64,000 nt of DNA, taken from NCBI RefSeq assembly GCF_033095945.1, contig NZ_AP026800.1:1736001-1800000 (forward strand), read 5' to 3'. The notes beneath the pieces are model-generated. The model worked only from the letters and a program-made list of their open reading frames with translations. It was not told the origin of the DNA and made no database searches. Within the stretch, counting starts at the first letter, position 1, and each line of letters begins with the position of its first letter. Below, in pieces: positions 28,979 to 58,143 of this stretch. The translations under genes and the position numbers were made by a program. This DNA is from Bombiscardovia apis. Its GTDB lineage: Bacteria > Actinomycetota > Actinomycetes > Actinomycetales > Bifidobacteriaceae.

Positions 28979-30493
28979 TTACTTGTTGCCGAGGCGACGA
29001 GAAGCAGCCAGACCAGCGCCAGCCAGAGCCAACAGTGCTACAGCACCAACGGCAAATGGCATAACATCGGAACCAGTAGAAGCCAAGGACTCTCCACCCT
29101 TAGCTTCATTCTGTGCCGCAGGATCAGCAGGCTTCGGGTCGGCAGGCTTAGGAGCAGGTGCCGGATCAGCAGGCTTCTTCTCAGCAGCAGGAGCCTGAGG
29201 AGCAGGCTTCTCTTCAGCAACCGGGGTCTTGGTATCATCATCAGATGGCGTTGTGGTGTCGTCATCGTCTACAGGAACTACAACTTCAGTCCACTTGGCA
29301 GAAACGGTAACGTCCTGGTAATCGCCGGTTGCAGAATCTACCGAAGCCTTGACATCGGCAGAATCGAATGCAGAACCGTCAGCATAGAACCAGCCATCGA
29401 AGGTGTAGCCATCGCGAGCAGCTGCAGGCGCAGTGCCGTCGAGAGCAATCTTGCCGCTGGCATCGTACTTGGTGGCGATGGTCTGAGCAGCTACAGTACC
29501 GCTGGCATCCTGGAAGGTTACCTGAGGAGTTGCACCCTTGACGTGAACATCCATCTGAACGACGCCAGTATAGGTGATGCTGCCGTCCTTCTTGCTAAAC
29601 TCATAAGAGTAGGTAGCATCGCCAACTGCGGTAGGAGCAGGCCATACAACGTTGTCGAGATCAATGATGACATCGCCGCCAGCAGGAGAAAGGTTCGAAA
29701 TATCAGTATCGGTTAAAGCAACTTCTGAACCAGCAGGGCCGACCTTAATCTTAGGAAGCTTAACGGGAGCAGAGTTCCGAATGACCGTTTCGTCAGGCTG
29801 AGCTTGCAGGCCCATCTGAATCTGAACACCATTGATCAGGTTGGGGAATTTAGCATAGGTTGCTGCACTGAGGTTCGTGTTAGCATCCACGCTCAGAGTG
29901 CCTACACCCGGAAGTTCCCAGTTACTATTGGGGAAATAGCCATTCTGTGGGTTATTGCCCATCAAAATTAACTCAAATATCGCGGGGGGGGGGGTCGGCG
30001 TTACGGCCTTGGTAAAACCGCTCAGAGAGCTGTAATCAGTAATAGTAGGATTGCCCGAAAGATTCAGAATTTCAATCTGGCCAGCAACAGGAGTTGCAGC
30101 AAGCGCAGCAAGATCTACAGCCGTCATTGCGGTAGCGGACGCATCAATCTGGTTAAGATTGGTGAGCTCACCAATACCGCCCCAGTTCTGCACCGGGAAC
30201 GAGGTGATGTCAGGCTCCCGAGCAATGGTGATATCGGTAATGTTGCTCACCATCGAAGAGGTAAAGACATCAGTGTCGCTAGCAGCACCTGCGGCGTCAA
30301 CGATGATGGGGGCCAAATCGGTAGAGAAGCAGTCAGCGATAGTGCTTGTATCGACAACGCAAGCTCGCGGGGAAACTCCGCCTGCAAATGCAGACGAATT
30401 ATTCAAAACTGCTACCCCTACGCCAGTGGCGAGAAGCGCGGATGCTGCGAGTCCCGCAGCGGTCCGTTTCAGCGAAATGGACGATAATTTCAA
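28979..30493 (-). CDS. LRR/InlB-repeat surface protein with LAxTG sorting signal and internal poly-C tract
   Basis: About 504 residues. The TTG at 30493 is preferred because AAGGAG lies 7 bases before it; the ATG at 30514 has no ribosome site. A basic start and hydrophobic helix ending SSAFA form the signal peptide. Residues 60-180 hold short leucine-rich-repeat-like units. Residues 330-410 hold one InlB B-type repeat ending GYTFDGWFYADGSAF. A Pro/Ala/Lys-rich wall-spanning linker follows. The end is LASTG, a membrane helix and RRLGNK, a class E-type sortase signal. An 11-C run on the coding strand near residue 165 keeps the frame here, so the gene is ON. It ends in its own terminator and lies downstream of a related larger gene. 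Confidence 0.88.
   Translation of the reverse strand: MKLSSISLKRTAAGLAASALLATGVGVAVLNNSSAFAGGVSPRACVVDTSTIADCFSTDLAPIIVDAAGAASDTDVFTSSMVSNITDITIAREPDITSFPVQNWGGIGELTNLNQIDASATAMTAVDLAALAATPVAGQIEILNLSGNPTITDYSSLSGFTKAVTPTPPPAIFELILMGNNPQNGYFPNSNWELPGVGTLSVDANTNLSAATYAKFPNLINGVQIQMGLQAQPDETVIRNSAPVKLPKIKVGPAGSEVALTDTDISNLSPAGGDVIIDLDNVVWPAPTAVGDATYSYEFSKKDGSITYTGVVQMDVHVKGATPQVTFQDASGTVAAQTIATKYDASGKIALDGTAPAAARDGYTFDGWFYADGSAFDSADVKASVDSATGDYQDVTVSAKWTEVVVPVDDDDTTTPSDDDTKTPVAEEKPAPQAPAAEKKPADPAPAPKPADPKPADPAAQNEAKGGESLASTGSDVMPFAVGAVALLALAGAGLAASRRLGNK
29984..29994. repeat. 11-base poly-G (poly-C on coding strand) tract inside a surface protein gene
   Basis: Eleven consecutive G on the plus strand encode the Pro stretch in VTPTPPPAIF of the surface protein. 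A change of one or two bases would shift the frame and truncate the protein after about 165 residues, before the InlB repeat and sorting signal. Confidence 0.9.
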
Positions 30494-30723
30494 TGCATAA
30501 CTCCTTATTTTCATAAGTAGTAGCTTCTGCTAGATGCAGAGCTGTTCGAAACTAATCTCCCCCAAATCAGCATAGCGTGTAGTCGCCAATGGCACACAAG
30601 CACCACTGCCGGTGTCTCCCCCCAACACAAACGCTGTCTTCTCATACTAGCCTCTAATTCCTCACATTGACACTCATATCAAAAAAATCAACATCAAATC
30701 ATCTCAAGCGTGAGGTCATAAAA

Positions 30724-52021: not shown

Positions 52022-53008
52022 TTAGTAGTTGTCGCCGTTGAGAACGGAATTGTTGACCACTACATAATCGACATGGCGGATGTCGGTGAGCTTGCTGCCT
52101 CCGGCATACGAAATGGAGGACTGAAGGTCCTGCTCAATTTCGCGCAGGGTGTCGGCAATGGCACCGCGGTAAGGCACCAGCATCTGCTTACCTTCCACGT
52201 TGCGGTAGGCGCCCTTCTGCTTCTCCGAGGCCGAGCCCCAATACTGTTTGAAGGTCTTGCCATCGATGGTGATTTTGCCGCCGGGCGACTCGTCGTGACC
52301 AGCCAACAAGGAGCCTACCATCACCATAGAAGCGCCGAAGCGAATAGACTTAGCGATGTCGCCGTTGTAGCGAATGCCACCGTCGGCAATAATTGGCTTA
52401 CGAGCAGCCTTGGCGCACAAACGCACCGCCGCCAGCTGCCAACCGCCAGTACCGAAGCCGGTCTTGAGCTTGGTAATGCAAGCCTTGCCCGGCCCAATGC
52501 CCACCTTCGTAGCGTCCGCGCCCGCGTTCTCCAGCTCGCGCACCGCCTCGGGCGTACCCACGTTGCCAGCGATAACGAAAGCGCCGGGCAGGGCCTGCTT
52601 CAAGTGTTGAATCATGCGAATTACCGAGTCGGAGTGCCCGTGAGCTATGTCAATCGTGACATATTCTGGCACCAAGTCGGCAGCAGCCAGTTCGTCTACA
52701 AAGTCATGCTCGCCTTGCTTGACACCCACGGAAATCGAGGCATAGAGCCCCTTGCTGTGCATAGTGCGCACAAAATCGGCGCGGGTTTGCGGCTCAAAGC
52801 GGTGCATCACGTAAAAATACCCGTTAGCAGCCAGCCACTCGGCCAGCTCGTCGTGAATCACGGTCTCCATATTGGCAGGCACGACCGGAATCTTAAATGT
52901 GCGGGGCCCAAACTGCACCGATGCGTCCGCCTGAGAGCGGGACTCGATAATGCACTTGTTTGGAATGAGCTGCACATCGTCGTAGTCAAAGACTTCTGAA
53001 GGGATCAT
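52022..53008 (-). CDS. guaC: GMP reductase
   Basis: A 328-residue IMPDH-superfamily barrel that converts GMP to IMP with NADPH. The start is [20 protein letters not shown]. The catalytic Cys loop is [20 protein letters not shown] (about residues 174-193). Phosphate binding is in [20 protein letters not shown] and [18 protein letters not shown]. The flap segment is [20 protein letters not shown]. It lacks the CBS domains of IMPDH. The layout matches the Firmicutes-type GuaC. It is transcribed away from the RCC1 gene. No purine riboswitch shape was seen upstream. Confidence 0.95.
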
Positions 53009-53313
53009 GGGCTCTTAAGCTCCTTCGTACGTCGGCCGAGCTTTGGCCCAGCCGTCCGTAACTACAGTCTAGCAAGAGCCCTGCCGCAAGCGAACAATCA
53101 CCGAACTCTGCGCAGTCGTTTGTAAGGACCGCAAGCGCAGAGCCCGAAATCCGCAGCATTGCGCCATCAGCATGGTAGAATGATACCTTATATATGCAAT
53201 ACGCAGACTGTTTGCACTAGTTGGGGAACTTGCACCGCGGAGCTTTGGTCCGCTCAGCTGCTCTTGCACGATACTCGAGTCCACCACTTGCACTCATTAC
53301 ACAGGGGTTTCAC
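53009..53313. other. Divergent intergenic region between guaC and the RCC1 surface protein gene
   Basis: The 305 bp hold the promoters of both genes but no gene that I can support. An 8-bp inverted pair (CTCTGCGC at 53106, GCGCAGAG at 53135) is the only structure. AT-rich sequence near 53178-53205 could be the RCC1 promoter. An open frame that starts at 53221 reads through the signal peptide and is not judged a separate gene. Confidence 0.4.
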
Positions 53314-56300
53314 ATGCGTAATTCCCGCACTGCCAGCGCAGTTGTGTTAACGCTAGCTCTAACTATCCTTGGGGGGGGGGGCTACTCAGTTTACGCGCTC
53401 AGCCGCAGCTGACTCAGCTCCAGATGATTCTCCCAGCCAACTGACACGCGGTGGTGTCACTGGCGAGGAAACAGTTGACGGATTCACGCTCAGCCCTACT
53501 AAAGGTCTTGCAAACGCGCCAAACCAGGCAAGCATCACACCGCCCGTACCACCAAACGGCGTACACTACACCCAAATAAGCACAGGCTGGGGCCACAGCT
53601 TGGCAATCGGCAACGACGGTAAGGTCTATGCCTGGGGATTCAACGTGCACGGAGAAGTGGATCCAACAATAGTAGGGCATGTCAATAGACCAGTGCGCGT
53701 ACAAGGCTTACCAAGCAACGTACGTTTTACTCAGGTTAGTGCCGGCGAGTACCATTCGCTCGCCCTCGGAGACGATCGCCAAGTATATGCTTGGGGGCAA
53801 AACTACTCCGGGCAACTTGGCAGTTCAACAGGCTTTGGAAGCATCGCAGGAAGCGGTGAAATTGTTCAAGTTTCAGGCGGCGACTTGCACGTTGGCATCA
53901 CCCAAATTAGCGCAGGCGCGGGCCACTCACTGGCCCTTGGCACCGACAGACAAATCTACGCGTGGGGCAGCAATACATACGGAGAGTTGGGCAACACCAC
54001 TGGCAACTCCGCACCCCCTAACCCCGCCAACATAGCACCCAAGCGAGTGACGGGGGCTGGACTGCCTCGTTATTGGGACCAAATTAGCGCAGGCTCAGGC
54101 TACAGCCTGGCTGTAGGATACAACAACCGGGTGTACGCATGGGGCAGCAACAAATACGGAACCCTAGCCACCCCCACCAACAGTGGCAGCACTATTGCGA
54201 ATCCCACTCCTCATGAGATACCCAACGCAGTCTCAATATTTGGCTGGTCACCGCTGACCATCAAGGCAGGATACATATCTGCCGCAGTCATCAGCAGAGA
54301 CCACAAAGTATATATGTGGGGCAATAACATGTATGGGCAACTGGGCAGTAGCGTTAATCTTGGCACGAACACCCCAGTCACCACCCCCACCTTAGTCTCC
54401 GGCGGCGCACTGCCCGCAGATATTGACAGCATAGATATAAGCTCAGGCACTCACGACGTCAATATCGTTAGCGGAGCCAGCACCCTCGCTATTGGCAGCG
54501 ATCACAAAGTCTACGCATGGGGAGATAACTACTTTGGGCAGCTTGGCAACTCAACGAATTTACGCACCAACACGCCAAACCCCACGCCAACTTTGGTCTC
54601 AAGCGCAGACCTATCCGGCAATACCACACACATTGCCGCTGGCGCAGGCCACTCTATCGCTCTCAACAACGACAACCATGCATACACCTGGGGCCTCAAC
54701 GGATACGGGGCTTTAGGTCAGGGAATAGCCTTATCTGTAGTCAGCCCCACACCCGGGAAAGTCCTCGAACCGGTAATCACCATTACCGGCATAAAGTTCG
54801 GCTCAACCGCAGCCGTTGCCACGTCTCAAGATGCCAACACTGGCACATGGACAGTTGATGTGCCCCAGCACTCAATAGGCAAGGTCGACGTCAGCGTGGC
54901 CTGGGCCATAGATGGAATCGCGCAAACCCCAATCACGCTGCATTATGAGTATAAGGGCACATACACGGTTCATTACGACCTTGGCGAGGGAAATGGGAAA
55001 GCAACAGGGCCAGCTGACCAAGCGGTGATGAACGGCGAGCCAGCTAATTGGCCCGAAGATCCAATCTGGACCAACCATCAGTTCACTGGTTGGTTCACAG
55101 CCGACGGCAAACCTTGGGGCTTCATCAATCCAGTAAACGAAGAGTTGACTTTGACCGCCCACTGGAACCACTACACCTTTGATATCTCCTCAACAATTGG
55201 CCCGACAACTGGCAACACTCCAGTGACCATACAGGCAAATCCCAAAACCACCAGTTTGCGCTTCACCCAAGTAAGCGGCGGCTCCGAGTACCATACCCTG
55301 GCACTCGGCTCAGACGGCAACGTTTACGCTTGGGGATGGAACGAATACGGCCAGCTGGGAGACGGCACTTTCTTTAGGGCCACTCGCTCGCAGCCATTGC
55401 GAGTATTGACTCCAGCTGGGGTCCACTTTCTCCAAGTCAGCACGGGGTTATATCACTCTCTCGCTTTAGGAGAAGACCACAAGGTGTATTCGTGGGGTTT
55501 CAATTTTAGCGGAGAACTCGGAGTAGCCAACAGTGGTAGACCACAGCCAAATCCTACTCCTATAAAGGTTACAAGCGGCAGTCTCAGCAACGCTTATATC
55601 ACTCAAATCAGCGCAGCAAACGGCTATTCACTCGCCCTCGACTCCAGAGGAAACGTGCATTCCTGGGGTCATAACAGGTCCGGACAACTCGGCAACACTA
55701 CCAACACCGGAGAAAACTACCCCAACCCAATACCGACACAAGTTATAGGTGGTTCCCTAACGCGGCGCAACATCATACAAATCAGCGCAGGCGGAGGCAC
55801 TGTCTTTGCGCTCGACAACACCGGCCGAGTTCACGCTTGGGGAAACAACACTGCCGGCCAACTCGGCAACACTGACGGTAACGGTATCTCAGATAGCAGT
55901 CATCCCACGCCCACGCTAGTTACCGGGGGCAGCTTGCCAGACGGCAGTATCACACAAATCAGTGCAGGAGGGTCCTTTGCTCTCGCTTTAGACACTACAG
56001 GCCACGTTCACGCTTGGGGATGGAATTCGTACGGCCAGCTCGGCAACACAAACAATATCAATCTGGGCATGATGGACAAAACAGCCAACCCCACACCCAC
56101 ACCAGTGAACACCGGCAGTCTCAGCAACGCCACAATCACTAGCATTAGTGCAGGAGGCGGCCACTCTGTAGCAATCGACACTCAGGGACGATTACACGCC
56201 TGGGGTTGGAATTCATACGGGCAGCTCGGCAACAGCATTAACAGTAGTGTCAGTTCTGAGACAAGAGCCAACCCCATACCTGTGCTCGTGACCGGAGGAA

Positions 56301-56830
56301 GCCTGCCGGCCGACAGGATTATCCAGGCCGATGCCGGAGCCGATTACACCCTGGCAATTAGCCATGACGGCAGTGGCAGCGCTTGGGGAGCCAACTACAA
56401 CAACCAACTCGGCGACGGCAACAGCTTATCTAGTACCGCCAATCCAACTCCCCGCGCAATTACATCGGGCGCAATCGATGTAAGCAGCATTGAATTCGGC
56501 GATTCGAGCCACGCCATAACACCGAGCTACAACGAGAGCGCCAAACAATGGAACGGCAAAAGCCCCGCCCATCCCGAAGGCACGATAGCAGTCAAAATGA
56601 AGTGGAGCACAACAGGAGCTCCCCAGCCCGACTATGTCATCACACCCGGCTTCCGCTACTACACCTTCCTAACGCTGCCCGCAGCCGGAACCGTGCCCTT
56701 GCAACGCTTCGGCGGGAGCAGCCTCCTCCTAGTCACCACCCTGGCCACCACCGCATACGCCGCCTACCAAGTAGGCAAACAAGGCCACCACCCAAAAGCC
56801 CGCCACCACCCCCACAACCGCCAGGGGTAA
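53314..56830 (+). CDS. RCC1-repeat surface protein, phase-variable (OFF by frameshift at poly-G tract)
   Basis: In the ON frame (one G fewer) the product would be about 1171 residues: signal peptide MRNSRTASAVVLTLALTIL, then two blocks of seven RCC1 repeats. Each repeat looks like FTQVSAGEYHSLALGDDRQV followed by YAWGQNYSGQLG. The blocks would make two seven-bladed propellers at about residues 75-495 and 640-1080. An IPT-like and one InlB-type segment (HQFTGWFTADGKPW) separate them. The end is LPAAG, a membrane helix and a His/Lys-rich tail, an LPxTG-like sorting signal. Here 11 G at 53371-53381 put the signal peptide in a different frame from the body; the signal frame stops at 53412. The start follows AGGGG. 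A sequencing error in the G run is the alternative. Confidence 0.85.
53371..53381 (+). repeat. 11-base poly-G tract at the signal peptide/body junction
   Basis: Eleven G lie between CTT and CTACTCAG. The frame of the signal peptide and that of the RCC1 body differ by one base. Ten or thirteen G would join them; eleven or twelve would not. Confidence 0.92.
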
Positions 56831-56979
56831 GCAAGCAACCACAGGCAATCGCCCCGACAAGCACCCGCGTGAAAGCTCGAAAGGAAATCGTAGACATAGC
56901 GGCCTGGTGGAGCCGGTGCCGCAGTGCCGTTGATATGATTAGCCAAGATTATGACTGATACCAAGCGAGAGGAAGCGCA

Positions 56980-58143
56980 ATGGACGCGGATTTGGTGATT
57001 GTGGGGGCCGGGCTCTTTGGGCTTACTGTGGCGCAGCAGGCGGTGGAGGCTACCGGTGCGCGCGTACAGATTATCGACGTACGCGACCACATCGGCGGCA
57101 ACGCCTACTCCTACAAGGACGAGGAAACAGGGGCCGAGATTCACCAGTACGGCGCCCACCTCTTCCACACCTCCAACAAGCGCGTGTGGGACTACACCAA
57201 CCGCTTCACCGAGTTCACCGACTACAACCACCGCGTCTACACCACACATAAGGGCGAGGTCTTCCCCCTGCCTATCAATTTGGGCACTATCAACCAGTTC
57301 TTCCACGCCCACTACACGCCTGCCCAGGCCAAGGCGTTGATTCAGGAGCAGGCCGGCGAACTGGCGGGCACCGATCCCGAGAACCTGAACGACCAGGGCA
57401 TTTCACTGATTGGCCGCCCCCTGTACGAAGCGTTTATTAAAAATTACACGGCAAAGCAGTGGCAGACCGACCCTTCCGAGTTGCCTGCTTCCATTATTAA
57501 GCGCCTGCCCGTGCGCTTCAACTATGACAACCACTACTTCAAGGACACCTGGGAGGGCCTGCCCAAGGACGGTTACACAGCTTGGTTTGAGCGCATGATT
57601 GACGACCCGCGCATTTCCGTCTCGCTCTCCACCGACTTCTTCGACAGCTCGCAGCCCTTCAACCGCGATGCTCTAGTCGGCAAGGTGCCCGTGGTCTACA
57701 CCGGCCCCGTAGACCGCTATTTCGACTACCAGCTGGGCGAACTCAAGTGGCGCACGGTAGAGTTTAAAGAGCAGCGCTACAACGAGGATGACCACTTCGG
57801 CTGTCCAGTCATGAACTTCTCTGACTCGGATGTGCCCTACACGCGTGCCATCGAGTTCAAAAACTTCAACCCTGAGCGCTACGAGGAGCAGAACCACGAG
57901 CGCACGGTGGTCTGGGAAGAGTACTCCCGCTTCGCCAGCAAGGGCGACGAACCTTACTACCCCATCAACACGGCCGAAGACCGCAGTCTCTACACACAGT
58001 ACAAGGAACTGGCCGAGAAGCAGCCGCAAGTAGTCTTCGGCGGTCGTTTGGGCACTTACGCATACTACGACATGCACCAAGTTATCAACTCGGCACTGGT
58101 GGCCTTCGAAAAACAGATTGAGCCCATGCTAGCTCAGCACTAA
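56980..58143 (+). CDS. glf: UDP-galactopyranose mutase
   Basis: A 387-residue flavoenzyme that interconverts UDP-galactopyranose and UDP-galactofuranose. The FAD fold starts DADLVIVGAGLFGLTVAQQA. RDHIGGNAYSYKDEETGAEI and QYGAHLFHTSNKRVWDY are signature segments. FIKNYTAKQWQTDPSELPAS contains the active loop Trp and Arg region, and YPINTAEDRSLYTQYKELAE and VVFGGRLGTYAYYDMHQVIN close the fold. The ATG follows AGAGGAAG. Galactofuranose is used in cell-wall or surface polysaccharides. No galactofuranosyltransferase is adjacent in the window. It lies between the RCC1 gene and a 31-bp-period repeat array. Confidence 0.97.
   Translation: MDADLVIVGAGLFGLTVAQQAVEATGARVQIIDVRDHIGGNAYSYKDEETGAEIHQYGAHLFHTSNKRVWDYTNRFTEFTDYNHRVYTTHKGEVFPLPINLGTINQFFHAHYTPAQAKALIQEQAGELAGTDPENLNDQGISLIGRPLYEAFIKNYTAKQWQTDPSELPASIIKRLPVRFNYDNHYFKDTWEGLPKDGYTAWFERMIDDPRISVSLSTDFFDSSQPFNRDALVGKVPVVYTGPVDRYFDYQLGELKWRTVEFKEQRYNEDDHFGCPVMNFSDSDVPYTRAIEFKNFNPERYEEQNHERTVVWEEYSRFASKGDEPYYPINTAEDRSLYTQYKELAEKQPQVVFGGRLGTYAYYDMHQVINSALVAFEKQIEPMLAQH

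Follow-up and report, generated by a model that had tools for sequence, protein, structure and literature searches.

We analyzed a 64,000-nucleotide window of the Bombiscardovia apis genome (G000:C1:1736001-1800000; the genome, G000 below, is a single contig of 1,937,113 bases). On its plus strand we located a signal peptide, a homopolymeric G tract and a long RCC1-repeat reading frame in immediate succession, together with a putative promoter and a 5' UTR element upstream:

53176-53181, plus strand: -10-like element TAGAAT with TG ahead, 43 nt before the UTR motif, a putative promoter found by hexamer search
53199-53250, plus strand: 5' UTR element with core TTGGGGAA at 53221-53228, a possible hairpin in which UU/AA closes a GGGG loop
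53303-53307, plus strand: Shine-Dalgarno-like AGGGG 5' of the ATG at 53314-53316, read directly from the sequence
53314-53370, plus strand: start codon and predicted signal peptide as far as the tract, MRNSRTASAVVLTLALTIL (19 codons), assigned from similar peptides in 40 leaders
53371-53381, plus strand: poly-G tract, exactly 11 G in the assembly, beginning at codon 20 (direct read)
53410-53412, plus strand: TGA closing the ATG-initiated frame after 32 residues (direct read)
53363-56830, plus strand: 1,155-codon open frame encoding the RCC1 body, not in register with the ATG when the tract has 11 G
54962-55162, plus strand: Listeria-Bacteroides (Flg_new) repeat flanked by blocks of RCC1 repeats (Pfam, residues 459-525 of the translation from 53588)
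56675-56689, plus strand: sorting-like motif LPAAG, with a hydrophobic stretch and then a basic tail behind it (direct read)

Direct reading of the sequence confirms the layout described in the initial annotation, in which signal peptide and RCC1 body occupy different frames and the break falls at the 11-G tract. Counted from its first TTG, the RCC1 frame has 1,153 codons. Pfam matches in the translation from 53588 are an RCC1-like domain (1.5e-156), RCC1 repeats (1.9e-128) and the Listeria-Bacteroides repeat (2.8e-07), a combination also carried by the RCC1 surface family of bee bifidobacteria. The C terminus carries at most a putative wall-sorting signal: hydrophobic stretch and basic tail are present behind LPAAG, but this motif is non-canonical when compared with LPxTG, and neither Pfam (E 0.01) nor NCBIfam (E 0.1) has a model that matches the last 110 residues. 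The protein is probably located at the cell surface. The solved proteins that come closest in sequence are eukaryotic and have the RCC1 fold, UVR8 and HERC2 among them, a likeness that informs on the likely fold and not on function. Adjoining genes encode an IMP dehydrogenase family protein, a UDP-galactopyranose mutase and a subtilase (Pfam); there is neither a pilin nor a sortase among these three nearest genes, and the gene is not the first of a sortase pilus cluster. A search for close DNA in plasmids returned no match.

The only other long run in the window, 11 C at 29984-29994, lies in the middle of a minus-strand gene (28979-30514) for a surface-type protein that has LASTG at its end and a weak Listeria-Bacteroides repeat scoring under the Pfam cut-off. 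It is in frame at its present length, and this gene, too, is possibly phase-variable. A match to the 5' UTR hairpin model described below lies beside the C run (12.2 bits, E 0.47), and we read it as chance.

The window gene is one of 40 leaders of a single design in G000, 28 or 29 of which precede RCC1 proteins and the rest mostly LRR wall proteins. The genome contains 69 G/C runs of at least 10, compared with ∼4 expected from an order-1 model fitted on 470 kb, and 40 of these 69 are G runs placed 50–62 nt past a signal-peptide start (56 or 57 nt in 37 cases). Restricting the set to bodies longer than 200 aa leaves 39 leaders: 28 RCC1 genes by motif count, nine LPxTG-type genes and two that are unclassed. 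Gene 470360, classed as RCC1 with few motifs, is 35% identical over 670 residues to an RCC1 gene of the relative G017. Among the 11 non-RCC1 leader genes, all six scanned with Pfam carry LRR and Listeria-Bacteroides repeats; the three of these six that were also scanned with NCBIfam appear internalin-like, with scores below the curated cut-offs. Because RCC1 bodies and LRR/Listeria-Bacteroides bodies stand behind the same leader, two unrelated protein families share it. Rows removed before counting were 562283 (a leader whose body is broken), 1629717 and 1699760 of 42 in G000, 1687284 of 27 in G017, and 609296, 757577, 1281700 and 1639148 of 10 in a third genome, G023; 562283 was restored only for the count of 40 leaders.

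Not every gene conforms to this design. A second break interrupts the body in 3 of the 21 RCC1 leaders with 11 G (562283, 565887 and 696480), and the LRR-type gene 1522798 is short, so some members of the leader family may be decaying. The G tract is missing from the leader position of three RCC1 genes (596316, 844120 and 867520) and is therefore not universal in the RCC1 family. In a further RCC1-motif gene (246554-251923, plus strand, 1,789 codons), the signal peptide seems to contain 11 C where the others have G. A C run and a G run ∼13 nt apart are found at 839723-839755 and again at 863127-863159, ∼1 kb past the 3' end of an RCC1 gene of which there are two copies separated by 23.4 kb; the paired runs read C10/G10 and C8/G11, respectively.

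Tract length and reading frame are coupled in G000. The eight leaders with 10 G all read in frame into their bodies, and a tract of 11 G puts 30 of 31 leaders out of frame, the sole in-frame 11-G leader being 1724151. By register, 9 of the 39 leaders are in frame, 25 lie one base beyond and 5 lie two beyond. Translation in the 30 out-of-frame genes stops 0–19 codons past the tract (9 codons in the window gene). In G017, 19 of 26 leaders are in frame, and 25 of the 26 tracts are called as 10. The register one base beyond the in-frame one is the commonest in G000 and in the relative G013, and is the annotated one at the Bifidobacterium breve loci considered below; this is not so in G017.

We identified 11 reciprocal-best pairs of leader genes between G000 and G017. 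In seven of them (G000 members 266633, 169835, 1481284, 461224, 645208, 700078 and 1702680; protein identity 61–93%) the gene is out of frame with 11 G in G000 and in frame with 10 G in G017, one-G differences that may be technical, since the two assemblies differ as wholes in the maximum run length that they report (see below). An example is 266633 (G11) and its G017 counterpart 1977548 (G10), whose proteins are 93% alike. The remaining four pairs lack this contrast: 811816 (10/10 G, both in frame), 1524300 (11/10, both out), 1700699 (11/11, both out) and 1724151 (11/10, both in).

Tracts recur in related genomes, which we compared using one genome per species. Across paralogues and species their lengths span 10–17, the G000 and G017 values being subject to a probable technical ceiling. 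G023 has six RCC1 leaders with the tract 56 nt from the start and 11, 12 or 13 G, two of which are in frame. RCC1 tracts in G001 (12–17 G, 8 genes) and G013 (11–15 G, 16 genes) mostly precede a conserved RQTPRVA motif. The start codon lies 111 nt upstream of the tract in 12 of these 24 genes and 114–126 nt upstream in another 5, so that the tract is located past the signal peptide and not within it; in the other 7 the start could not be placed confidently, and in-frame totals for G001 and G013 were therefore not used. All three registers are represented among the G001 genes with a start 111 nt upstream. The best G017 homologue of the window gene, with 46% identity overall and 51% over its best-matching stretch, is in frame and reads GGGATQ at the tract site from the interrupted run GGAGGTGGAG. 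The body frame of the window gene gives the identical GGGATQ, and the protein thus does not require an uninterrupted run.

The sequence following the tract carries a signature that points to selection for early termination. Of the two wrong frames that follow the tract we took the longer one in each gene, and compared its mean length in codons with values obtained when codons were redrawn from the genes' own usage. Observed and simulated means are 9.56 and 17.57 in G000 (39 genes), 7.77 and 17.41 in G017 (26 genes), 6.75 and 19.30 in G001 (8 genes), 7.25 and 19.34 in G013 (16 genes) and 12.83 and 18.23 in G023 (6 genes), and none of 200 simulations reached the low observed value in any of the five genomes. 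Body codons from position 100 on, used as a control in two genomes, show no such effect (16.74 and 17.07 in G000, 16.85 and 17.21 in G017). As the leaders are homologous, early stops within one lineage are not independent and do not amount to 95 cases; the post-tract sequence differs between G001/G013 and G000/G017/G023, however, which gives at least two instances.

The bodies themselves are conserved. dN/dS is 0.19–0.36 in all 11 reciprocal-best pairs, 10 of which have 11 G in G000; nine pairs fall between 0.19 and 0.31, and the other two have values of 0.30, from a pair only 30% identical and near saturation, and 0.36. For the window gene, comparison with its G017 homologue is unusable because synonymous sites are saturated, and the value of 0.15 against paralogue 1528011 is also near saturation. 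The earlier argument that a frame without stops implies selection on the window gene is weak when taken alone; stronger evidence comes from the dN/dS of the family pairs.

Upstream of the start codon, the leader genes share further sequence. A generic promoter scan of 53000-57000 found none on the plus strand and a single match, fewer than in shuffled sequence, on the minus strand. A -10-like hexamer precedes the UTR motif by 27–55 nt in 69 of the 71 leader genes of G000, G017 and G023, a spacing that is partly imposed, as TAGACT-like hexamers were picked only 25–75 nt upstream of the motif with 45 preferred. Among the 39 G000 leader genes, 31 have the octamer TTGGGGAA no more than 220 nt ahead of the start, compared with 0.59 expected. 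Alignment of the 59 genes (of the 71) that have TTGGGG[AG][AG] 50–130 nt before the start, the other 12 lacking it in this range and standing outside the alignment, defines a 5' UTR element with an invariant UUGGGG core that is common to RCC1 and LRR surface genes.

The element may form a hairpin, and its helix appears to covary in part. The fold in which UU/AA closes the GGGG loop is predicted in 51 of 59 genes, although the invariant core alone makes such folding likely. Relative to shuffled flanks the gain in stability is modest (mean z -1.08), and the window copy is no more stable than shuffles (z 0.15). A six-pair helix exceeds its shuffles in paired cells (81.3% against 74.1%), in cells with double-sided change (36 against 21.7) and in score (0.330 against 0.215); for each measure none of 500 shuffles was as high, and all three drop when the partner strand is slid. 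Two other counts are not outstanding: 4 pairs show double-sided change (336 of 500 shuffles as high), and there are 17 further pair types (57 of 500 shuffles as high). Two of the helix pairs show no double-sided change at all, and the outer pairs fail to form in 15–26 of 57 rows. RNAalifold returned no structure for the whole 5' UTR alignment of 65 genes, and an Rfam search of the window and four other stretches at the gathering score yielded only two tRNAs and one SRP RNA, with no match to the hairpin.

We then built a hairpin model and searched 39 genomes with it (E up to 0.1, training members included). The window copy, itself a training member, scores 21.6 bits (E 0.0021). Sites number 30 in G000, 23 in G017 and 3 in G023; G006, which lies outside the training set, has 5 (best E 0.0023). 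Other genomes have 0–2 sites, except for G041 from another genus, with 5 weak sites (best E 0.017). A regulator may act on the shared hairpin. We tentatively propose that promoter, UUGGGG hairpin, signal peptide, poly-G tract and wrong-frame stops form a portable cassette in front of two wall-protein families, which might place ∼40 proteins under both random slippage and one common regulator; we regard this extended scheme as possible and somewhat doubtful.

Switching by a G tract has precedents close to this genus. Replication slippage at a G tract has been measured for the pilus genes bbr_0113 and bbr_1889 of B. breve UCC2003, and G tracts are listed there for other bifidobacteria as well (PMC9187656, Penno et al. 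2022). As in the window gene, whose anchor is putative, a Sec signal and a body (anchored in B. breve) lie in two frames that a G tract (8–13 G in B. breve) joins or fails to join, and both loci are annotated one base beyond the productive register, like the commonest register in G000 (PMC9187656). The bbr_0113 type differs in that its tract belongs to the leading pilin gene of a pilus operon that includes a sortase of its own, with one or two such clusters per genome (PMC9187656), whereas G000 has 40 leaders in front of RCC1 and LRR proteins. In Gardnerella, a related genus, tracts of at least 8 lie near genes with LPXTG and other surface domains, and a change in tract length between colonies has been demonstrated for one gene; unlike in G000, most of these tracts are upstream of genes and concern other proteins, and the accessible text describes no shared leader (PMC11287997).

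RCC1 surface proteins have been tied to bee bifidobacteria (PMC3447821, Bottacini et al. 2012; PMC4449606, Ellegaard et al. 2015). Like the window protein, the honeybee proteins combine RCC1 repeats with a Listeria-Bacteroides repeat, and as in G000 they occur in many copies (19 per genome in one report and 7–24 in the other); they also have a sorting signal, to which the LPAAG end of the window protein may correspond. A word search of the two main texts gives no hit for homopolymer, frameshift or phase variation (PMC3447821, PMC4449606). No paper among the matches listed, which lie mostly outside subscription papers and preprints, joins the RCC1 family to a homopolymer tract. The slippage mechanism is hence already known from B. 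breve pili; what we did not find in the literature searched is the family-wide leader cassette. Intragenic G tracts also set the frame of surface genes at the poly-G contingency loci of the Gram-negative Neisseria and Campylobacter, for which we know of no common leader cassette.

Taken at face value, 11 G would place the window gene in the OFF state, as the initial annotation had it. We do not regard this as established: 46 of the 47 G000 runs of at least 11 are exactly 11, 38 of 44 G017 runs of at least 10 are exactly 10, and this ceiling looks technical. By length, G000 has 11 G runs of 9 (obtained by subtraction from 197 nine-base matches), 22 of 10, 46 of 11 and one of 12, so that 1 of 47 runs of at least 11 exceeds 11, compared with 248 of 342 in the pooled genomes G001–G017 (17 of 26 same-genus genomes). 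G000 runs outside leaders obey the same ceiling (14 of length 10 and 15 of at least 11, one of these 12). Only 6 of the G017 runs reach at least 11, and in the first 18 stretches examined each of the 15 long runs measures exactly 10, including three that do not belong to a leader. No such ceiling is seen in G001 and G007, which are single-contig genomes. Truncation of long homopolymers in consensus calling is a fault of some sequencing methods and offers the simpler reading, a biological ceiling being possible. Given the sharp ceiling, we take "11" to mean 11 or more, so that the window copy may or may not be OFF. An ON or OFF state taken from an assembly can depend on the quality of long-homopolymer calling, a caution that holds for both G000 and G017.

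It is accordingly an even call whether the tract is genuine and slippery with 11 being a consensus truncation of a longer or mixed length, in which case the OFF call is an artefact and the locus still phase-variable. Along with the run-length distributions, B. breve deep sequencing favours this reading, having returned 59% G12 where the reference has G11, so that the annotated tract length was not the commonest at one locus (PMC9187656). Against it, some relatives with few runs likewise have few beyond 11 (1 of 5 in G004, 1 of 4 in G015, 1 of 3 in G008 and 2 of 5 in G014), a species-specific slippage equilibrium could also stack runs at one length, and calls of 10 G and 11 G coexist in the G000 assembly. 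We consider it improbable that RNA polymerase or the ribosome is programmed to slip at the tract, so that the one-base-long register would steadily give a small amount of in-frame product without any switching. The predominance of that register in G000 (25 of 39) would fit such a mechanism, as would the G013 RCC1 tracts, which are G12 in 11 of 16 genes whereas its two G11 genes are in frame, and the two B. breve pilus loci, each of which is productive at minus one (PMC9187656). However, the early stops seen in either wrong frame suggest selection for tight silence, in-frame tract lengths are also present in relatives, the in-frame register is the commonest in G017, and the B. breve authors ascribe expression to replication slippage (PMC9187656). 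That the genes are a decaying repeat family with poly-G as a mutational accident we hold to be very improbable: the second breaks in three 11-G RCC1 leaders point in this direction, but dN/dS is low in every pair, and the tract is identically placed before two unrelated families, in G017 and G023 as well.

We therefore favour the view that the window locus is very probably a simple-repeat contingency gene encoding a secreted RCC1-repeat surface protein that is phase-variable through its poly-G tract. Its signal peptide would run into a tract prone to replication slippage, and, depending on tract length, translation from the only credible start would either enter the RCC1 frame or stop soon afterward. 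The slipped-strand layout recognized at the outset is strongly supported by the 40 leaders of the same design, the tracts in relatives and the early wrong-frame stops, and for the G-tract leader genes as a group phase variation is, judged from sequence, well supported. Tract length would be expected to change within a clone.

The RCC1 proteins of bee bifidobacteria were described in 2012, in the accessible text without an assigned function (PMC3447821); those studied here may serve adhesion or recognition in the insect host's gut. With 40 leaders of one design, each having its own tract, cells could display differing combinations of surface proteins. If our interpretation is correct, these genes constitute a large phase-variable surface gene set in a Gram-positive commensal, and any single genome or culture of these bacteria would sample one among many surface states, with a bearing on insect-gut colonization, phage sensitivity and strain variation.
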